Positions 1-10,258 of a DNA stretch of 10,258 nt are shown in pieces. Numbering within the stretch: the first letter of the stretch is position 1; every line of letters begins with the position of its first letter. Origin of the DNA: an uncultured bacterium (GTDB taxonomy: Bacteria > Bacteroidota > Bacteroidia > Bacteroidales > Paludibacteraceae); NCBI GenBank assembly GCA_947074225.1, contig CAMTOX010000040.1, positions 1 to 10,258 of the forward strand, in the 5' to 3' direction. A program made the translations under genes and the position numbers. The notes under the pieces are model-generated. The model worked only from the letters and a program-made list of their open reading frames with translations, ran no database searches and was not told where the DNA came from.

Positions 1-54
1 GGCATACGAGATTTCTGAATGTGACTGGAGTTCAGCCGTGTGCTCTTCCGATCT
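1..54 (+). other. Illumina P7/TruSeq adapter contamination (artefact, not genomic)
   Basis: Bases 1-12 match the end of the Illumina P7 flow-cell primer (GGCATACGAGAT). Bases 13-20 (TTCTGAAT) are the 8-base index, which I recall as the reverse complement of TruSeq HT index D705 (ATTCAGAA). Bases 21-54 match the TruSeq index-read adapter that begins GTGACTGGAGTTCAG and ends GCTCTTCCGATCT, with one difference: C instead of A at base 36. The genomic insert begins at base 55. This is unremoved library adapter at a contig end. Translated, it gives the sequence VTGVQPCALPI, a variant of the VTGVQTCALPI string seen in contaminated protein entries. No biology should be read into it. Confidence 0.98.
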
Positions 55-1517
55 CCTACATTGCCTCAGTTACTTATGGAGCAGTTATAGTACCTATATT
101 ACAAGACTTCAATCCGAGCGATATAAAACATATCATCAACCATTCCGATTCAAAATTGTTAATAGTAAGTGATTACTTATGGGAAAATGTTGATGAAGAG
201 TCTTTAGACAATTTATATGGTGTTCTTTCGCTAAACGATTTTCGTTGTTTAAATCAGCGCGATGGTGAACAAATTCAGAAACACTGTAAACATTTAGAAA
301 AAAGCTTTAACGAGAAATATCCAGAAGGTTATGGTCCGGAACATGTGCTCTACCCAACAGTACCCAATTCAGAATTAGCTTGCATAAGTTATACTTCTGG
401 TACCACCGGATTTAGTAAGGGTGTAATGCTTCCAGGCAATGCGTTGGCCGGTAATATTAGCTTTGGTATTACCACCCGTTTATTAGAGAGAGGAAGTCGT
501 GCTTTAGCATTTTTACCTTTGGCTCATGCCTATGGTTGTGCTTTCGACTTCTTAACATCGTTCTGCGCTGGTTCGCACACTACTTATTTAGGTAAAGTGC
601 CATCTCCAAAAGTGCTTTTAAAAGCCTTTGAAGAGGTAAAACCTACCACTATCTTTACTGTACCTCTCATTATTGAGAAAATTTATCGTAAACAAATTCA
701 GCCACTTCTAAATAGCCGTTCTATGCGTTGGGCCATGAATGTTCCTATTATAGATGCTACAATATTAGGCACTATTCGCAAGAAACTTACGGCAGCTTTT
801 GGTGGCGAATTTAAGGAGGTTATTATTGGTGGCGCCCCATTAAACCCTGAAGTTGAAGCCTTTTTCCGCAAAATAGGATTTAAATTTACCATTGGTTATG
901 GCATGACTGAATGTGCTCCACTTATTAGCTATACACCTTGGGATGAGTTTAAACCTACATCGGTAGGTAAAGTACTGCCAACTATGGAAGTGAAAATAGT
1001 TAAACAGAACCCTAACGACGAAGTAGGCGAAATATGCGTACGCGGAGAGAATCTTATGGTGGGGTACTATAAGAACGAAGAAGCCACTACAGCAGTTCTT
1101 GATGAAGAGGGATGGTTACATACCGGAGATATGGGAACTGCCGATGAAGATGGTACCATATACATACGTGGACGCTATAAGAGTATGCTCTTAGGACCTT
1201 CGGGACAAAACATTTACCCTGAAGAGGTAGAGGCTAAACTTAATAATATGCCATTTATACTTGAAAGTTTAGTATTACAAAATACCGACCATAAATTGGT
1301 GGCATTTGTATACCCTGATTATGAAGCTGTTGACGAAGCAAAAATTGAGCAGAAAGATTTAGAGCTTATCATGAATGAAAACTGCAAGAATTTGAATAGC
1401 ATTGTGGCAAGTTACGAACAAATTACTGCCATAAAACTATATCCAAATGAGTTTGAGAAGACTCCGAAGAAGAGTATTAAAAGATATCTCTATGTAGATT
1501 TATTAAAACAACAATAA
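55..1517 (+). CDS. long-chain-fatty-acid--CoA ligase / AMP-binding synthetase, 5' truncated at contig edge
   Basis: This is an ANL-superfamily adenylating enzyme. It activates a carboxylic acid, most likely a long-chain fatty acid, with ATP to an acyl-adenylate and transfers it to CoA. The first wholly genomic codon is TAC at 57; everything before base 55 is adapter. Counting residues from the adapter GTG at 21, the P-loop YTSGTTGFSKG is at 124-134, the A5 motif GYGMTE at 292-297, GWLHTGD at 364-370, the hinge motif RGRYKSM at 383-389, GQNIYPEEVE at 395-404, and the C-terminal TPKKSIKRYLY at 481-491 holds the candidate catalytic lysine. All core motifs are therefore present. About 486 genuine residues remain, and by comparison with full-length FadD-like relatives (about 550-560 residues) some 70 N-terminal residues lie beyond the contig end. 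The family call is firm; chain-length specificity cannot be read from the sequence. A bidirectional terminator begins 23 nt after the stop. Confidence 0.93.
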
Positions 1518-1629: not shown

Positions 1630-2364
1630 TTACTTCTTTTTTGAACTCTCAAGAAGCTGAGGGTAGTAGGTATTACTTAGAAAGTGATGATTGGGTACAT
1701 CTTTAAGTATTTGTTGGCACAATGCTATTGCCTTCGTTAAATCGCCTGTTTTTTCATAACACATAGCTTGAGCTATACGTGCTTCAATCCAATTCCATTT
1801 GTACATGGGGTTATTTTCTTTAGCAAAGAGTGGTAAAGATTGTGTAAAATAGAGTTTTGCCTTCTCTTTATCGCCACCAGCAATAGAAGGCATGTAAAAA
1901 TAGACATTACCACGGTATGCCACTACCAAGGGATGTTCAGGTGCTAAAGCAAGTGCTTTCTCCATATAACTCATCGAACTTCTACCATAACTCATGGCCT
2001 TCCACTTATTAAAAGTAATTTCATAAACAGAGAGTGATGATCGGTAAAGTTGAATAAGCTCCGGCCGATATTGTTGTTTCTCTAAAGCATCTAAATAGGT
2101 ATACATATGGTTCATGACTCTACGTGCCTCCTCTTTATCTTGTTTACCTAAACAGGCAGCAATATATCCGTACATATAATGAACCGTTTCCATTTTTTGA
2201 GCATTAGTAAGATGAGATTGTTTAATAGCATTATCTATGGGCGCTTTCCACTCAATAATAGCGTTATTTAGGTAGTTTTGATACATACTATCGTGATTAA
2301 AGAGTTGCGCCTGAATGGAGAAACAAAGAAAGAAGGTTATGATAAAAAGAAGTGCTTTTTTCAT
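1630..2364 (-). CDS. secreted tetratricopeptide-repeat-like protein
   Basis: A 244-residue protein with a clear Sec signal peptide: MKK, a hydrophobic stretch at 4-17, then SIQA with predicted cleavage after Ala19. The mature part is helical and repeat-like. Residues about 129-180 and 190-228 read as TPR units, for example MEKALALAPEHP at 134-145, GGDKEKAKLYF at 163-173, and EKTGDLTKAIALCQQIL at 204-220, whose KAI..CQQIL pattern fits the second helix of a TPR. The segment with GGD followed by KAK..F resembles the TPR architecture of periplasmic TatT-like proteins, but that is only a resemblance. It probably acts in the periplasm or at the cell surface as a protein-interaction scaffold; the partner is unknown. 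It starts at an ATG directly before the signal peptide. It lies downstream of mscS in the same direction, separated from it by a strong terminator and carrying its own probable -7 box, so it is probably transcribed alone. Confidence 0.82.
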   Translation of the reverse strand: MKKALLFIITFFLCFSIQAQLFNHDSMYQNYLNNAIIEWKAPIDNAIKQSHLTNAQKMETVHYMYGYIAACLGKQDKEEARRVMNHMYTYLDALEKQQYRPELIQLYRSSLSVYEITFNKWKAMSYGRSSMSYMEKALALAPEHPLVVAYRGNVYFYMPSIAGGDKEKAKLYFTQSLPLFAKENNPMYKWNWIEARIAQAMCYEKTGDLTKAIALCQQILKDVPNHHFLSNTYYPQLLESSKKK

Positions 2365-2398
2365 ATGATTGAAAATTTTAAGTGTGAATTTTACATGG

Positions 2399-2406
2399 CA
2401 AAGATA
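2399..2406 (-). promoter_or_regulatory. candidate -7 box for the TPR gene
   Basis: On the minus strand this reads TATCTTTG, an exact match to the Bacteroidota -7 consensus TAnnTTTG. It would put the transcription start near 2391, about 27 nt before the ATG at 2364. No good TTTG is seen 19-21 bp upstream, because that position is taken by the mscS terminator stem. The -33 half is therefore unsupported. Confidence 0.45.
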
Positions 2407-2442
2407 ACAAAAAAGGAGTTCTAAGAACTCCTTTTTTGTTAT
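2404..2442 (-). terminator. intrinsic terminator of mscS
   Basis: A perfect 18-bp inverted repeat (2404-2421 and 2425-2442) with a 3-nt loop. On the minus strand the RNA has GGAGUUC, loop UUA, GAACUCC and then UUUUUUGUU, a textbook intrinsic terminator. The mscS stop codon (2439-2441) lies inside the upstream arm, and the other end of the stem overlaps the -7 box of the TPR gene. Confidence 0.9.
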
Positions 2443-3275
2443 TTGCCTTGATGTACTGTAAGTTGTGGGAAGGGAAAACCGATGCCCACTTCATTAAATG
2501 TTTTATATACTTTCTCTTTGAAATCAAAGCTCACAGGCCAATAATCATCCAGAGAGGTCCATACACGTACAGTAATATCTACACTACTATCGGCCAATTG
2601 TCCTAATCCGATAAAATGTTCTGGATCTTTAAGAATACGACTATCTTCGGCAATAAGTTTTTCTATCACTTGCTTTACTTTAGCATAATCGGTACCATAT
2701 TCAACACCAAAAGAAAGATCTACACGACGTACTTTCTGATGACTATAGTTAATTAACACACCATTGGTAATTGAAGCATTGGGAATAAAGACTACTTTAT
2801 TGTCTACTGTTGTAAGAATAGTATTAATAATCTGAATCTCTTTAACAATACCCATATAGTTTTGTGTTTCAACAAAGTCGCCAACTCGGTAAGGTTTAAA
2901 CACCAAAATCATGATACCGCCAGCAAAATTCTGCAAACTGCCACTCATTGCCATACCAATACCAACACCTGCCGATGCTATTAAAGCAGCAAAAGAGGTA
3001 GTTTGAATACCCAGAGTGCCAACAACCACTATAAAAAGTAAAATTAGCAATACCACATTTACGATACTACCAAAGAAAGAACGTACAGCAGGGTCTACAT
3101 TACGACGTTCCATGAACTTGCCAAGCATGCGGTTTACAAAGCGTATTAACCAACGCCCCACATAAAAAATTAGAACTGCTAAAATAATATTCTTACCTAG
3201 TTCTAAACCAAATGTAGTTAACTTCTCAATGATTAATTCAAAATCTTGATTCTCTAAATTTTCTAATTGCTCCAT
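2439..3275 (-). CDS. mscS: small-conductance mechanosensitive channel (MscS family)
   Basis: An inner-membrane channel that opens under membrane tension to release solutes during osmotic downshock. From the ATG at 3275 the protein has 278 residues, close to E. coli MscS (286). Three transmembrane helices fit at about 28-46, 68-90 and 94-124. The third is the pore helix, with the alternating small-residue pattern ASAGVGIGMAMSGSL followed by QNFAGGIMIL. The beta domain follows (FKPYRVGDFVE, then a VFIPNASITN stretch), then the mixed alpha/beta domain, and the C-terminus contains FPFPQLTVH, typical of the family. An in-frame TTG at 3299 would add eight residues, but that codon is part of the -7 promoter box, so it cannot lie within an mRNA made from that promoter; ATG 3275 is the better start. 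The gene is probably transcribed alone. The upstream nhaC has no evident terminator, so some read-through is possible. Confidence 0.95.
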   Translation of the reverse strand: MEQLENLENQDFELIIEKLTTFGLELGKNIILAVLIFYVGRWLIRFVNRMLGKFMERRNVDPAVRSFFGSIVNVVLLILLFIVVVGTLGIQTTSFAALIASAGVGIGMAMSGSLQNFAGGIMILVFKPYRVGDFVETQNYMGIVKEIQIINTILTTVDNKVVFIPNASITNGVLINYSHQKVRRVDLSFGVEYGTDYAKVKQVIEKLIAEDSRILKDPEHFIGLGQLADSSVDITVRVWTSLDDYWPVSFDFKEKVYKTFNEVGIGFPFPQLTVHQGK

Positions 3276-3296
3276 AATAATTAATTGTTTATGATG

Positions 3297-3328
3297 CAAA
3301 AATACAAAAAAAATGAATATATTTCAAA
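3297..3328 (-). promoter_or_regulatory. Bacteroidota-type promoter of mscS
   Basis: The minus strand carries TTTG (complement of 3325-3328), a 20-bp spacer, then TATTTTTG (complement of 3297-3304). This matches the primary sigma factor consensus of Bacteroidota (TTTG, 19-21 bp, TAnnTTTG) exactly. Transcription would start near 3289, leaving a leader of about 15 nt before the ATG at 3275. Confidence 0.8.
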
Positions 3329-3486
3329 TTTATAATCATCTAAAACTAGCAATAAAGAAGTAAGTCATTACTCTTATAATCTGGAAATAACATAGCATTA
3401 AAAGAGCAACTAAAATTGAATAGGTTAAACTAGCGTTTTAAGTGCAGAGTGAGCAACACTGAATTACGTAACATCATTTCTGTTAG

Positions 3487-4971
3487 CTATAGTTCAACTA
3501 TTTGCTCCTCTACAGTAGGTTCTTTCACCGGAATACGCCAAATCTTATACCCTATTCTTGCAATTAAAATAGTGGTAAAAGGAGAGAGATAGTTGACTAT
3601 ACAGTACGGTAGGAACGTTAATGTTGGAACATTAAGAACAGCACTCTGAGTCATACTACAGGAGTTCCATGGTATGAGCACTGAAGTAACAGTGATACTA
3701 TCTTCTAATGTACGGCTTAACAAACGAGGTTCAAAGCCCTCTTTTCGATATAACTCCTTAAACATATCGCCAGTTAAAAGTATGGAGACATACTGGTCTG
3801 AGGTTGTAATATTCATTAATATCCCCCCTGCGGTGGTTGTTGCTACAAGCGAAGTTCGTCCTGTAACAAGTTTCATCAATGCTAGAGTAATGCTATCGAG
3901 CATTTTAAAGGCACTCATGGCAGCTCCAAAAGCCAATGCACATATAATTAGCCAGATGGTATTGAGCATCCCCGACATACCTCTTGTAGCTACTAGCTCT
4001 TGTAGCTGTTCAGTAGGCATAGCTAAAGAGGTGGTACCAAAAAGCATCTGTATTAATCCTTTCAACCCTACCATGTTATTACTACCACCTAATGAAGAGC
4101 CAATCTCTTTGAAAAGTTCGGGTTGAAAAATAGCACCAAATATTGTAGCTGCAACAATAGATACCGTGAGAATTATGAGCGAAGGTAAACGCTTTGCTAT
4201 TAATATGGCTGTAATTAATGGTACAATTAATAACCATGGAGTGATGTTGAAACGAGATGCCAGAGCAGTTTTAAACTCTTGCAACTCTACCACTCCCTGA
4301 TGCGAACCAGCAAAACCTACCACAGTATAGACTATTAAAGCAATAATGAAGGTTGGAATTGTGGTAATCATCAGATATCGGATATGAGTGAAAATTGGTG
4401 TTCCGGTAACAGAGGCTGCCATAACGGTAGTGTCTGAGAGTGGCGATATTTTATCGCCAAAATAGGCACCAGAAATAATAGCTCCAGCAATCCATCCGTT
4501 GCTAAAACCATGTACCTGCCCTATTCCCATAAGTGCTAAACCAATAGTGGCAATAGTAGTCCATGAGCTACCTGTAGTAATAGATACCACAGCACAAATT
4601 ATACACGAGGCTAAAAGAAATAGTGCTGGGTGAAGTAACTCTACTCCATAGTAAATTAAAGTTGGTACAACACCACTCACCATCCAAGAACCCGATAACG
4701 CCCCAATTAATAGAAGCATTAAGAGAGGGACTGCGGTATTCTTAAGTTGTTTGACAAAATCTATTTCAAAATCGGTAAAGGTGCCAGTTTTTAAGATTAA
4801 TCCTAAAACACAACACACTATTGCTGCCAAAAGAATAGCTATCTGTCCGGCACCATCTAAAATATCGCCATCAAAAAGAAATACCATCAGAGCTATCAAG
4901 CCTAATAGTAGTAGTAATGGTATTAATGCAACAATTAAATGAGGTAACTTTATATTTATTTCTTTATTCAT
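3487..4971 (-). CDS. nhaC: NhaC-family Na+/H+ antiporter
   Basis: A 494-residue, strongly hydrophobic inner-membrane transporter of the NhaC family, which exchanges Na+ for H+; some members instead couple organic acids such as malate or lactate. Numbered from the ATG at 4971, the family signature TTGSSWTT is at 132-139 and GAYFGDKISPLSDTT at 168-182. The C-terminal half has TTSDQY at 389-394 and LIPWNSC at 432-438, consistent with the inverted-repeat fold. About 11-12 membrane spans are visible, starting around residue 10. Length is normal for the family. A TTG two codons upstream (4977) could also be read, but ATG is preferred. The gene stands alone: 523 bp separate it from mazG upstream, and mscS downstream has its own promoter. 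No clear terminator follows. Its job is probably sodium and pH homeostasis; the exact substrate is not provable from sequence. Confidence 0.92.
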   Translation of the reverse strand: MNKEINIKLPHLIVALIPLLLLLGLIALMVFLFDGDILDGAGQIAILLAAIVCCVLGLILKTGTFTDFEIDFVKQLKNTAVPLLMLLLIGALSGSWMVSGVVPTLIYYGVELLHPALFLLASCIICAVVSITTGSSWTTIATIGLALMGIGQVHGFSNGWIAGAIISGAYFGDKISPLSDTTVMAASVTGTPIFTHIRYLMITTIPTFIIALIVYTVVGFAGSHQGVVELQEFKTALASRFNITPWLLIVPLITAILIAKRLPSLIILTVSIVAATIFGAIFQPELFKEIGSSLGGSNNMVGLKGLIQMLFGTTSLAMPTEQLQELVATRGMSGMLNTIWLIICALAFGAAMSAFKMLDSITLALMKLVTGRTSLVATTTAGGILMNITTSDQYVSILLTGDMFKELYRKEGFEPRLLSRTLEDSITVTSVLIPWNSCSMTQSAVLNVPTLTFLPYCIVNYLSPFTTILIARIGYKIWRIPVKEPTVEEQIVEL

Positions 4972-4985
4972 CTTCAATCTTTAAT

Positions 4986-5033
4986 AGTATTATTTGTAAG
5001 CAGATTTTCTAAACAGAAAAGGAATATAATACT
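4986..5033 (-). repeat. inverted repeat in the nhaC 5' leader
   Basis: The outer arms AGTATTAT (4986-4993) and ATAATACT (5026-5033) are perfect complements. An inner pair, TTTTCT (5005-5010) and AGAAAA (5015-5020), closes a 4-nt loop. The interior is asymmetric (11 nt against 5 nt). It begins 14 nt before the nhaC ATG. It could be an mRNA leader hairpin or an operator; AT-rich repeats of this size also arise by chance. Confidence 0.35.
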
Positions 5034-5432
5034 GTTCAACAGAATCCACTGTTAATGTGTATAGGATAGGAATTATGGAATACCATATTTAATTTGACAT
5101 TGATAAAAAGAGCTTATTCTTTAGTTAGAAACAGTGCTTTATAATTGAATTAGAGAGTAAGAGATATTAACCTATAGAGGTTAGATTCAACATCTAATCA
5201 ACATGAAAGTCTGACAAATAAAAATTATGCCTAAAGAAGAAGTAGACCAATGTATAGACCTTAAATATTAAACCCTTAATGCTACATATTATTAGATAAA
5301 AGAGCTGTAGATTTCATAGTTAACAATCTCTACTTCTCTAAATAAAAGAATAATTACCAGACAAATAATCTATAAATATTGCAGGTAATCTATTCAAGTA
5401 TAGCAAAAAACATACTAAAATGGTTACAAAAA

Positions 5433-5469
5433 AACACACCATTGAAATGTTGAATTTCAATGGTGTGTT
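5433..5469 (-). terminator. intrinsic terminator of the cysS-lipoprotein-mazG operon
   Basis: Perfect 16-bp arms (5433-5448 and 5454-5469) around a 5-nt loop (5449-5453). On the minus strand the stem is AACACACCATTGAAAT with its complement, and the complementary arm runs straight into a run of seven T before GTAACC. It lies about 30 nt after the mazG stop at 5501. Confidence 0.9.
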
Positions 5470-5500
5470 ATTAGTATAAGGTTATATTAAAAAGTAGCTG

Positions 5501-6298
5501 TTATAGCCCTTTTGCTTTTGCTTCGTTCCAGAAAGCGTCCATATCTTCCAGGCTCATTTGTCTCAGGTCTTTGCCTTGCTTAATAGTTTTATCTTCAAGA
5601 TAGTTAAATCGTCGAATAAATTTAGCATTGGTACGCTCTAATGCATTTTCAGGATTAATATTATAAAGTCTTCCAACATTGATAATACTAAAAAGAAGAT
5701 CGCCATATTCAGCTTCCATCTTGTCTTGGTCCATATGTTCTATTTCGTCTTGAAATTCTCTTAACTCTTCCAAAACTTTATCCCATACTTGGTTGCGTTC
5801 TTCCCAATCAAATCCCACACTACGTGCTTTATCTTGAATACGATGTGCTTTAATAAGTGCGGGTAATGCTTGTGGCACTCCCGATAAAACACTTGTATTA
5901 CCATCTTTCTCTTTAAGTTTTAACTGTTCCCAGTTCTCTATCACAGTCTTGGAGTCGTCGGCTTTGACCTCACCATAGATATGTGGATGTCGGTATATCA
6001 GTTTATCGCATAAGGCATCGCAAACATCTTTAATATCAAAACTACCCTCTTCGGATCCTATACGTGCATAGAAGACAACGTGTAACAAAACATCGCCAAG
6101 TTCTTTTTTTATTCCCATGTTATCGGTTTTAGCAATAGCATCGGCTAATTCATATACCTCTTCAATGGTATTGCAACGTAAAGATTCAAAAGTTTGTTTA
6201 CGATCCCAAGGGCACTTCTCGCGCAACTCTGTCATAATAGTCAGCAAACGATCAAAAGCTGCCAACTGTTCTTCTCTACTATGCTCAATATATTTCAT
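5501..6298 (-). CDS. mazG: nucleoside triphosphate pyrophosphohydrolase MazG
   Basis: A cytoplasmic all-alpha NTP pyrophosphatase that hydrolyses (d)NTPs to the monophosphate and pyrophosphate, removing non-canonical nucleotides; in E. coli it also lowers ppGpp during starvation. The 265 residues match the usual two-domain form. The N-terminal domain has CPWDRKQTFESL (29-40), then EEVYE (46-50) and ELGD (66-69), the EExxE...ExxD metal-binding motif. The C-terminal domain has EELRE (177-181) and EYGD (197-200), preceded by KAHRIQDKARSVGFDW (150-165). Both metal motifs are intact. The ATG at 6298 comes only 2 nt after the TAG of the lipoprotein gene, which implies co-transcription and probably translational coupling. 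It is the last gene of the operon, followed by a strong terminator. This is the housekeeping MazG and not a toxin-antitoxin partner; no mazEF genes are nearby. Confidence 0.96.
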   Translation of the reverse strand: MKYIEHSREEQLAAFDRLLTIMTELREKCPWDRKQTFESLRCNTIEEVYELADAIAKTDNMGIKKELGDVLLHVVFYARIGSEEGSFDIKDVCDALCDKLIYRHPHIYGEVKADDSKTVIENWEQLKLKEKDGNTSVLSGVPQALPALIKAHRIQDKARSVGFDWEERNQVWDKVLEELREFQDEIEHMDQDKMEAEYGDLLFSIINVGRLYNINPENALERTNAKFIRRFNYLEDKTIKQGKDLRQMSLEDMDAFWNEAKAKGL

Positions 6299-6300
6299 AT

Positions 6301-7335
6301 CTATTCTTTATCACTATTTATGGGATAATAGTAGTTGTTGAAGTTACCTAAATACTCTCCCGACACCTTATTACCCATCTGATCTTTTAAATCTATCTTA
6401 ATTAAACACTTTCCGTCTGGCTGGTAATTCAACTCAATGGAGTCGTTAAGTATAGTGGCCCTTCCTGAAACAGAGCCCTTATTATAAGTTTGCCAAAAAG
6501 TTCCCCAGTTCATATTCCCACTCTTATGACCATAAAGTAAAGTTTCAGATTCATAGAATCTACTCACAGCATAGGTACCATTTAGTGGTAAAGTAGCATT
6601 ATTACTCTGCACTCCTAAAACTAAATAACAGCCATAACTATATTTTCCTTTGTCTGTACGACGCATATTGGTAGAATAGAGATAATATTCGTAATAGTAA
6701 ATTCCAGGTGCAAAGAGTTCTCCCCAGTGGTATAGATTACCTTGTTGCAATGCATAATTCAAAGTATCAATACGCATATACCCAACAGAATCGCCATCGA
6801 TACTACTATTATAATAGGTTTCGCCATGATAGGAACCTAAAATAGAGTCGCCTGCTAGGTTAGCTAAATGCAAATCAAATTGTTTACCAAGAGCTATTGG
6901 CGCTATGGTCAAATAGCCACCGCCAATAGGCGTATAGAGGGTATCCTTTTTATCTTGAGTATAATAAATCATTGCTGAACTATCGGCAAGCACTGTCATA
7001 GTCTGCCAACTATTAGAGACTAAAAAGTCTCCTTGCATACTTGCATGTGCTGAATCTACTAAGAGTACAAGGTTTAACAAAGCGCCATATCCGGAAAGAG
7101 TAGATTCATTCACCGTTAATGTTGACGAAGAGAGTTGCAGTAAGACCACTGGGACATTATGTTCTGGTGCAATACCCATATACTCAAATCTAGCTTGTTT
7201 AATGTTATATCTCTCGCCTAAATAGGTAAACGCCCCCCCACTAGAAGTTGTAATAGGAGTAGGATGACATGATGCCATTAAACATACTACCATAAAGAAG
7301 AGCAAGATGTGCCAATATTTACCTACTTTTATCAT
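6301..7335 (-). CDS. hypothetical lipoprotein, beta-rich, with probable internal duplication
   Basis: I do not recognise this family. From the ATG at 7335 it has 344 residues, with a lipoprotein signal peptide: MIKVGKYW, a hydrophobic core, then LMASC with the lipidated cysteine at 23. It should therefore be anchored in the outer or inner membrane, facing the periplasm or the surface. An in-frame GTG at 7341 would add two residues. The rest is rich in Tyr, Gly, Ser and Thr and alternates hydrophobic with polar residues, as in beta-sheet proteins. Two halves look related (about 36-175 and 202-337): GYGALLNLVLLVDS and YGCYLVLGVQS; MQGDFLVS and LNGTYAVS; SILGSYHG and KVSGEYLG occur in the same order. 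It follows cysS by 33 nt and precedes mazG by 2 nt, so it belongs to their operon, but nothing suggests a role in tRNA charging. Function unknown. Confidence 0.78.
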   Translation of the reverse strand: MIKVGKYWHILLFFMVVCLMASCHPTPITTSSGGAFTYLGERYNIKQARFEYMGIAPEHNVPVVLLQLSSSTLTVNESTLSGYGALLNLVLLVDSAHASMQGDFLVSNSWQTMTVLADSSAMIYYTQDKKDTLYTPIGGGYLTIAPIALGKQFDLHLANLAGDSILGSYHGETYYNSSIDGDSVGYMRIDTLNYALQQGNLYHWGELFAPGIYYYEYYLYSTNMRRTDKGKYSYGCYLVLGVQSNNATLPLNGTYAVSRFYESETLLYGHKSGNMNWGTFWQTYNKGSVSGRATILNDSIELNYQPDGKCLIKIDLKDQMGNKVSGEYLGNFNNYYYPINSDKE

Positions 7336-7368
7336 ATTCACTGAACCGAAAAATAATTATAGAATCAA

Positions 7369-8832
7369 TTATAAACTCCACTCAAAACCATCTTTGGTAT
7401 CTTTAACTGAGAAACCAAATGCTGTTAACTCATTACGTATACGGTCGGAAGTTGCCCAATCTTTATTTTGTTTAGCCTCTAAACGCATCTGCAATAACAT
7501 ATCTATAGCTTTTTTGTATGCCTCACTACCATCGGCTTGAGATGTCGTTTCTAGACCTAGAATTTCCTCTACAAAGATTTGAAATACCTCTTTAAGTTCG
7601 TTTAAATCTTCTTCAGTAATGGTTCCATTACCATCGTGAATGGTATTAATGGCTTTTGTGGCCTCAAAAAGATGCGATATTACAATAGGCGTATTGAAGT
7701 CGTCGCACATGGCAGTTTCACATTTCTCTCGTAGTCCAGCTACCTCTACAGTAGTTTGCTTTCCAGTTTGCAACTTTTGTAATCGAGCATAAGCCTCAAT
7801 GAGACGTTGATATCCTTTCTCGGCAGCCTGTAGTGCGTCATTGCTAAAGTCTACAGTACTGCGGTAATGAGCCTGAAGAATAAAGAAACGAATGGTCATT
7901 GGAGTATAGGGTTGCTCGAGCAAAGAATTACTTCCAGTAAAGAATTCATCTAAGGTAATGAAGTTTCCTAACGATTTTCCCATCTTTTGTCCGTTGATGG
8001 TAATCATGTTATTATGCATCCAATAGTGCACAGATTCATGACCAAGTGCAGCTACAGATTGAGCAATTTCGCACTCGTGGTGTGGGAACATTAAGTCCAT
8101 ACCTCCACCATGTATATCGAACTCTTCGCCTAAATATTTAGTTCCCATAGCCGAGCACTCTAAGTGCCATCCTGGAAAGCCCTCGCTCCATGGTGAAGGC
8201 CAACGCATAATATGCTCTGGCGATGCTTTTTTCCATAGAGCAAAGTCGGCACTACGGCGCTTTTCCGACTGACCATCTAAATTACGTGTAGTTTCTAATA
8301 GCTCTTCAACGTTACGTCCGGAGAGTTTTCCGTAGTGAAAATCGCGGTTATACTTCTCTACGTCGAAATAGACAGACCCTTCACTTTCATAACCATAACC
8401 GGCATCGAGAATACGCTTCACGAAATCTATCTGCTCAATAATATGACCCGAAGCATGTGGTTCAATACTTGGAGGCAACACATTTAATTTATCCATAGCC
8501 TTCTGATAACGCAACTTATAATATTGCACCACCTCCATTGGCTCTAATTTCTCCAAACGTGCCTTCTTAGCAATTTTATCCTCACCTTCATCGGCATCGT
8601 GTTCTAAGTGGCCCACATCGGTAATATTACGTACATAACGTACCTTATAACCTAAATGCATGAGGTACCGAAATACTACATCGAAGGTAATTGCAGGGCG
8701 CGCATGCCCTAAATGTCCATCGCCATATACGGTAGGTCCGCACACATACATACCCACATGAGGTGCATGTAAAGGTGTGAACAACTCTTTCTTTCTATCT
8801 AAAGTATTGTAAATATAAAGTTTATGTTCCAT
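7369..8832 (-). CDS. cysS: cysteine--tRNA ligase
   Basis: A class I aminoacyl-tRNA synthetase that charges tRNA-Cys with cysteine using ATP in the cytoplasm. The 487 residues are typical for the bacterial enzyme (E. coli 461). The HIGH motif is HLGH at 40-43, and KMSKS is KMGKS at 283-287. The four zinc ligands that select cysteine are visible: Cys31 (VCGPTVYG), Cys226 (GWHLECS), His251 and Glu255 (FPHHECE). The conserved Trp222 precedes the second ligand. The C-terminal anticodon-binding and DALR-type helical part continues to EWSL. The start is the ATG at 8832 ([16 protein letters not shown]), which fits the family N-terminus. It is the first gene of an operon with the lipoprotein and mazG, and it is divergent from the GadC-like gene. 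A -7 box match lies about 95 nt upstream. Confidence 0.97.
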
Positions 8833-8879
8833 TTGAATCTTATTTTATATATTATCGCTTTTAAAATAATCTATTATGT

Positions 8880-8909
8880 GTATAGATGAGATTTAAAACC
8901 TATCTATAC
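8880..8909 (-). repeat. inverted repeat in the cysS leader
   Basis: GTATAGAT (8880-8887) and ATCTATAC (8902-8909) are perfect 8-nt complements around a 14-nt interior. It lies downstream of the candidate start of transcription, so it would fold in the cysS leader RNA. It has no U-tract after it and no T-box features, so its role, if any, is unknown. Confidence 0.35.
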
Positions 8910-8924
8910 CAATATATTAAGATA

Positions 8925-8954
8925 CAAAGTTACAATTATTTCATTTAACACAAC
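8925..8954 (-). promoter_or_regulatory. candidate promoter of the cysS operon
   Basis: On the minus strand TAACTTTG (complement of 8925-8932) matches TAnnTTTG exactly. A GTTG (complement of 8951-8954) lies 18 bp upstream as an imperfect -33 box (consensus TTTG, 19-21 bp). Transcription would start near 8917, giving a leader of about 85 nt before the cysS ATG. Confidence 0.5.
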
Positions 8955-9145
8955 ACACCTTTGAACAACATTCCTATAATTTATTATAAAACAAAGCAAT
9001 AATTTATAGTCCTGCAAATAGAGTATTTAGTATAATAAATTACAGAAATGAATAAATAGGAATAATATTTGTGTTATAAGAAAGTCGAAAAACAAATTTT
9101 TGTTTTAAGAATATTATAGGCATTAATAAGCATGAAGAATATATT

Positions 9146-10258
9146 ATGAAGAATAACAATTCTATTATAAATCAGAATAGCATAAGTTTATCGACGCTAA
9201 TTGTAATGATAATAACAGCTATTGTCACAATACGCGGTTTAGCAACAGAGGCAGAATATGGGACAAGCTCAGCATTTTATTATATAGTAGGAGCAATTAT
9301 CTTTTTCATACCAACAGCACTTGTCGTGGCAGAATTAACCATGATGTTTCAAGACACAGAAGGAGGTGTAGCTACATGGATTGGTAAAGCATTAGGAATG
9401 AAATATGGCCTTGTATCGATATGGCTCCAGTGGATTGCTAGTATGATATCTTTTCCTGCCCTATTAATTGTTGGTTCTGTAAGCATAGCATATATTGGCA
9501 CCGATATGGCCTCGGATAGTCTTCTGGCATCGAACAAAATCTACACCTTTATCATTATACAAAGCATGTATTGGATTGCTACTATAATAGCACTTAACGG
9601 CATGAAATGGATAAGTAAAGTCTCTAAAATAGGTGGACTCATAGGCACTATTATCCCAATTGTTGTGCTAATAGTTTGTGCTATATTATTTCTCATCATG
9701 GGAGGCGACAGTCAAATTAACTTTAGCCATGATTATATACCTAAGATAAGCGGAATAAACCAACTAGTACTTGCCTCGTGTGTATTTAGTTTTTACTCAG
9801 GCATGGAAATTATAAGCGCACATATTAAAGACATTAAGAAGCCAGAACAAAACTTCCCAAAAGCATTTCTAATTGCTGCTATAGTAGTCATTTTAGCCTA
9901 TATATTGGGTACTTTCTCAATAGCTATAATAGTTCCTCAAGCAAAGATAAGTCTAACACAGAGTGTTATGATGGGGTTTGATCACTATGCACAATTCTTT
10001 AATATACCTTGGGCATCTTCAATTTTAGCCGTAGCATTGGCCATTGGAGTCTTTGCAATGTTATTGGTATATATTAGCGGTCCTTCAAAGTCACTATTTG
10101 CAATGGCAAGATTAGGTTTCTTACCTCTCTTCTTTCAGAAAACAAACAAAAAGGGATTACCTAAGAATATTCTCATCATTCAAGGGTGCCTATTCAGTAT
10201 TTTAAGTATACTCTTTTTAGTAATGCCAACCGTTCAAAGCTTTTATCAAATAGTTTGT
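9146..10258 (+). CDS. GadC-like amino acid antiporter (APC superfamily), 3' cut by window end
   Basis: An open frame of 371 codons runs from the ATG at 9146 to the last base without a stop. The product is a hydrophobic inner-membrane transporter with about ten of the expected twelve helices. It resembles the glutamate:GABA antiporter GadC along its length: AEYGTSSAF near 36-44, VAELTMMF at 61-68 followed by EGGVATWIGKALG at 72-84, YSGMEIISAHIKDIKKPEQ at 217-235 (GadC: YMGVEASATHVNEMSNPG), SIAIIVPQAKISLTQSVM at 258-275, and SGPSKSLFAMA at 311-321 followed by LPLFFQKTNKKGLP at 326-339. Family members are about 480-560 residues, so some 110-190 C-terminal residues are missing, including the C-plug region of GadC if it exists here. 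Substrates are not determinable; GadC itself exchanges glutamate for GABA in acid resistance. No decarboxylase gene is visible in this window. It is divergent from cysS. Confidence 0.88.
   Translation, partial: MKNNNSIINQNSISLSTLIVMIITAIVTIRGLATEAEYGTSSAFYYIVGAIIFFIPTALVVAELTMMFQDTEGGVATWIGKALGMKYGLVSIWLQWIASMISFPALLIVGSVSIAYIGTDMASDSLLASNKIYTFIIIQSMYWIATIIALNGMKWISKVSKIGGLIGTIIPIVVLIVCAILFLIMGGDSQINFSHDYIPKISGINQLVLASCVFSFYSGMEIISAHIKDIKKPEQNFPKAFLIAAIVVILAYILGTFSIAIIVPQAKISLTQSVMMGFDHYAQFFNIPWASSILAVALAIGVFAMLLVYISGPSKSLFAMARLGFLPLFFQKTNKKGLPKNILIIQGCLFSILSILFLVMPTVQSFYQIVC

Follow-up and report, generated by a model that had tools for sequence, protein, structure and literature searches.

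Leftover TruSeq adapter at the contig ends of a bacterial genome assembly and probable adapter relics accepted as biology in public records

The first 54 bases of the window, i.e. the whole stretch of 10,258 nucleotides analysed here, are on the evidence of sequence comparison leftover sequencing adapter, an ordinary artefact and not bacterial DNA. This adapter provides a truncated acyl-CoA ligase gene with a false start, which had gone unseen in the first-pass annotation, as had the presence of the i5 side in the assembly and the association of the base-36 substitution with an unusually long tail. The window constitutes contig C40; the assembly to which it belongs comprises 393 contigs with 2,196,743 bases in total, is 67.5% complete and bears adapter at further contig ends. 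According to the main reading, to which we assign a probability of about 0.97, untrimmed adapter with the index pair D705/D501 entered the assembly by read-through of short inserts, including a presumed de Bruijn stop near k 55.

The composition claimed for bases 1-54 in the first-pass annotation, namely P7 end, 8-base index and TruSeq adapter with a single substitution at base 36, is confirmed by a script comparison, in which 53 of the 54 bases equal the last 54 of the D705 primer. The letters of this primer are printed in PMC4632578, and a shorter form is given in PMC7377907. The sole mismatch is C for A at base 36, while the index together with the P7 end agrees with the printed primer at 20 of 20 bases. 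The index name D705 suggested in the first-pass annotation proved correct, as primer D705 carries TTCTGAAT in both papers. Chance cannot account for agreement with a fixed string at 53 out of 54 bases; by our own estimate far fewer than 1e-20 such matches are expected in a genome of 2.2 Mb. The far end of the window (10200-10258) was checked for adapter as well and contains none. The features at the adapter-bearing end are compiled in Table 1.

Table 1. Coordinates of the adapter parts and of the reading frames at the start of the window
Feature	Position	Strand	Basis
TruSeq dual-index adapter, P7-primer sense	1..54	+	53/54 bases equal D705 primer as printed in PMC4632578; outer end lost at contig end
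P7 flow-cell sequence, inner end	1..12	+	equals printed primer
i7 index D705, TTCTGAAT here, ATTCAGAA in read sense	13..20	+	D705 name in PMC4632578 and PMC7377907
TruSeq constant adapter part	21..54	+	33/34 bases; mismatch is base 36
Substitution C for A	36	+	adapter position 19 from insert; shared with contigs C53 and C138
Long-chain acyl-CoA ligase gene (AMP-binding family), 5'-truncated, ~70 codons missing	55..1517	+	PF00501; identity to P0001
False open reading frame, apparent GTG start inside adapter	21..1517	+	open-reading-frame list

The boundary between adapter and genome was located by means of P0001, a protein of 558 residues found by protein search and encoded on two ENA contigs, whose sample of origin may be that of the window or another one. 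BLASTP pairs residues 17-504 of the window with residues 71-558 of P0001. The first two of these differ (IS versus MT), and from base 57 on the window is identical to P0001 residues 73-558 at 486 of 486 positions. Residue 19 is encoded by bases 57-59, and codon 18 (TCC) consists of the last adapter base and two further bases, which are compatible with ACN, the Thr codon of P0001. Given this split codon and the identity from residue 19 onwards, the genome sequence starts at base 55. The first-pass annotation had named an independent sequence that continues with the same 54 bases as the outcome that would speak against adapter. The opposite is seen: the N-terminus of P0001, comprising 70 residues, is unlike the adapter-coded residues of the window. 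Both the primer identity and this comparison at the junction support the claim of untrimmed library adapter.

The gene itself is cut short, as its match to Pfam PF00501 begins only at profile position 64, so that the N-terminus of the acyl-CoA ligase is missing. In 76 of 79 related loci at least 59 open in-frame residues precede the aligned start, the other three having 0, 1 and 38. Of the alignments to these 79 relatives, 59 start at residue 16-21, 18 at residue 5, 7 or 13 and two well inside; the 18 that reach into the adapter-coded residues are taken for chance extension. A search with P0001 for the missing 70 codons on other contigs of the assembly yielded C40 itself as sole match. The nearest named relatives of this first gene belong to the Bacteroidales. 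For the window, it follows that bases 1-54 should be trimmed, that the gene should be recorded as 5'-partial, and that MTGVQPCALPIS is not to be read as an N-terminus. The remainder of the window (1630-10258) looks ordinary and encodes a TPR protein, an MscS-type channel, a Na+/H+ antiporter, MazG, a 346-residue protein devoid of a Pfam match, a cysteinyl-tRNA synthetase and, truncated at the far end, an amino acid permease.

The suspicion that further contig ends might be affected was justified, since the assembly contains 129 P7-side and 48 P5-side copies. The former are matches to the 34-base constant part with at most three mismatches (57 forward, 72 reverse; positions listed for 100 of the 129), and the same 34 bases read backwards, used as a control, matched nowhere in the assembly. 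The latter are matches to a P5-side 24-mer with at most one mismatch, for which the reversed control likewise gave none. All ten index stretches with exact flanks equal ATTCAGAA within one base, four exactly and six with one change. The i5 side is present too: seven error-free P5 tails extend through TATAGCCT, which is D501 according to PMC4632578 and PMC7377907. For an unbiased estimate of the rate, every sixth contig from C5 to C359 was sampled over its initial 300 bases, which gave 60 starts in total, six of them reading N. Among the 54 readable starts, 15 carry adapter by script score (11 P7, 4 P5). The start of C269, which stands outside this count, appears by eye to be a badly read P5 adapter. 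Hence, roughly one in four of the readable starts in this sample is affected, whereby genes are broken and false protein ends are made; in addition, adapter ends may keep contigs of the assembly from joining.

That bases 1-54 are genuine bacterial DNA with a mere resemblance to adapter would accord with the open frame, which runs from 3 to 1517 through the junction and whose start would read HTRFLNVTGVQPCALPIS. However, this notion is opposed by the agreement with a printed synthetic primer, index included, at 53 of 54 positions, by the 129 copies in the same assembly versus none for the reversed pattern, and by the different N-terminus of P0001. Moreover, an adapter 25-mer occurs in only four of 395 genomes of the phylum, the window's genome included, where it is present in 127 copies as opposed to 1, 1 and 9 in the others. 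The genuine-DNA explanation is therefore vanishingly improbable. One genome of the same phylum, G066, carries nine adapter copies and is rated 100% complete.

As to its origin, the TruSeq adapter (i7 D705, i5 D501) was almost certainly reached by reads extending past the end of a short insert; it remained untrimmed and was carried into the assembly. In line with read-through, genome sequence extends up to the adapter, and the P0001 gene is free of it. Among 143 contig ends, mostly picked through search matches, 104 bear adapter (77 P7, 27 P5), all reading outward from the insert, which was the only direction scanned. At ends of C207, C303 and C203 complete adapters are followed by poly-A/T and then by unrelated bases, and these complete tails with poly-A/T and noise mark the run-off of short inserts without trimming. 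Tails of 103-188 bases, some with poly-A/T and with noise-like bases, occur at ends of C207, C15, C58, C184, C210 and C303; base calls past the end of the molecule were assembled into these ends.

Alternatively, the adapter might have come in through adapter dimers or adapter-ligated chimeric molecules instead of short-insert run-off. A precedent is IMGVR_UViG_3300028829_003071 (L131), a 5179-base viral contig of another sample, in whose interior (approximately 3889-3951) an almost complete adapter with index TGACCA is located, as from a chimeric join. This adapter lies about 1.3 kb from the contig end and gives the impression of linking two separate pieces. In the window's assembly, on the contrary, complete tails terminate in poly-A/T and noise, the mark of an ended molecule, and the 104 adapter-bearing ends all read outward, albeit in a scan of the outward direction only; the chimeric origin is accordingly quite improbable.

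Short-insert run-off leaves a further trace in the length of the tails. Without any error are 41 of the 77 P7 tails, 38 of which comprise 46-49 bases (the others 30, 35 and 52). Of 29 tails with one or two errors, 28 comprise 48-55 bases and one 177, while the seven tails with three or more errors range from 48 to 103. The P5 tails (n=27) behave alike, with seven error-free ones of 44-50 bases, five with one or two errors of 48-54, and 15 with more of 47-188. The difference in length between error-free P7 tails and those with one or two errors is significant (p 6e-12, Mann-Whitney), with the caveat that longer tails offer more room for errors. In the class with one or two errors, 37 of 38 changes fall within the first 45 positions.

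A narrow length of error-free tails and a greater length of error-bearing ones is what a de Bruijn stop predicts. An assembler of this type, with k presumably near 55, would follow the insert into the adapter and stop once the k-mers are shared. With thousands of inserts abutting one adapter, sharing would start while several insert bases are still contained in the k-mer, and for this reason error-free tails would measure k minus a few bases. A read error in the adapter would render the k-mers rarer and bring the stop closer to k. A one-parameter model, fitted without the three error-free outliers (30, 35 and 52) that sit outside the cluster, expects 4.1, 12.3, 17.1 and 3.0 tails of 46, 47, 48 and 49 bases, respectively, with 5, 15, 14 and 4 being observed. 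Every k from 49 to 59 fits the error-free tails equally well (log likelihood -49.38 each), and it is the upper edge of the error-bearing tails, 55 bases, that suggests k = 55. This value is a common metaSPAdes setting.

The tail of the window, with 54 bases as compared to mostly 46-49 in error-free tails, would find its explanation in the change at base 36, which occurs elsewhere in a tail of 54 bases at C53 and in one of 51 at C138. Most likely this substitution is a read error. A variant of the synthetic oligonucleotide would match its recurrence in three contigs here and in two from other samples in IMG/VR (two stretches there match the base-36 variant); nevertheless, the change is not exceptional, given that among P7 tails with one or two changes the count is five for C45A and three each for C27A and the base-36 change, which renders an oligonucleotide variant unlikely. 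The notion that base 36 denotes an adapter variant of its own was abandoned, other single changes being equally common.

Beyond this assembly, at least 120 stretches in IMG/VR match the adapter. The window's own 54-mer had no match in phages and plasmids because it includes the index and the error, and the constant 34-mer was used in its place. The latter is present in 16 of 50,697 phage records, in several at the record end and in some twice (e.g. LC710218.1, ON687736.1 and MW927522.1), and in none of 72,556 plasmid records. In OR797046.1 an adapter copy is overlapped by the annotation of a hypothetical protein. Two of 5,426 E. coli genomes contain the 34-mer, one with a mismatch or gap. These are the complete chromosomes NZ_AP046542.1 (2224712-2224745, 100%) and NZ_AP040990.1 (4842174-4842206, 97.1%), with no annotated feature under either copy.

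Adapter has also found its way into public proteins. An adapter-coded peptide query retrieved at least 2,931 proteins at E up to 10 (8,000 scored candidates, proteins of about 70-217 residues), of which about ten would be expected by chance from the meaning of E. All 120 proteins among the matches listed (P0121-P0240) contain an exact run of at least 11 query residues, e.g. of DWSSDVCSSDL or VTGVQTCALPI, versus a longest run of 4 for reversed peptides on the same proteins. Seven of these 120 also have a precomputed Pfam domain. A literature search for adapter-coded peptides among open-licence papers gave no earlier report. From searches on adapter contamination and on contig ends PMC10978663 was followed up, in which the terms 'adapter' and 'adaptor' are absent; a term look-up in PMC6344338 and PMC11476376 gave nothing on adapters of such kind.

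The terminal repeats of Staphylococcus phage Andhra (Andhravirus andhra; KY442063.1, RefSeq NC_047813.1) constitute a particular case. The published 155-nt terminal inverted repeats, annotated at 14-168 and 18380-18534, are exact inverted copies. Therein, TruSeq adapter including a six-base index occupies bases 14-55 and the mirrored positions, amounting to 42 bases per end; the far end read inward consists of ACGGCATACGAGAT, CACTGT, the constant 34 bases and then phage. The records of phages Pontiff and Pike start at Andhra base 56, and the annotated Pike repeat (1-113) has the length that is left once 42 bases are removed from Andhra's 155. With 42 adapter bases per end, the real Andhra repeat would thus measure about 113 nt. 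Against this correction stand the annotated Pontiff repeat (16-143), which differs in length, and the statements in PMC5362749 according to which the reads employed had been trimmed and the contig was corroborated by PCR with primers directed towards the ends. In the open-licence literature no earlier report of adapter in the Andhra repeats was found, 'adapter' occurring 0 times in the searched text of PMC5362749 and PMC9710869.

Taken together, it is highly probable that curated records present adapter relics as biology, comprising the Andhra repeats (about 113 nt being real) and thousands of public proteins that include adapter-coded peptides, a few of these on real domains, and that tail length records both k and the commonness of the adapter. 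If so, an adapter string changes a published fact on the ends of a phage genome. For the field, it matters that this string recurs in public proteins by the thousands, as well as in 16 phage records and two complete chromosomes of E. coli. The value of the finding lies in the cleaning of the window's assembly and in the reminder that adapter has been annotated as biology elsewhere.

Compared with known systems, the window resembles the Illumina D705 primer as printed in having index and constant part in the same order over 53 of 54 bases, and differs from it by the substitution at base 36 and by the primer's outer 12 bases, which lie beyond the contig end. Adapter relics of other assemblies likewise sit at contig ends: in 80 IMG/VR loci among the matches listed, 80 of 81 copies lie at most 247 bases from the end of the available stretch and one lies inside. 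The density is far greater here, with 127 copies of the 25-mer as opposed to 1, 1 and 9 in the three other positive genomes among the 395 of the phylum. PhiX contamination of isolate genomes (PMC4511556) is similar in that DNA of the sequencing process was deposited as microbial. However, PhiX is a spiked-in control genome, whereas in the window's assembly genuine contig ends and genes have adapter joined onto them.
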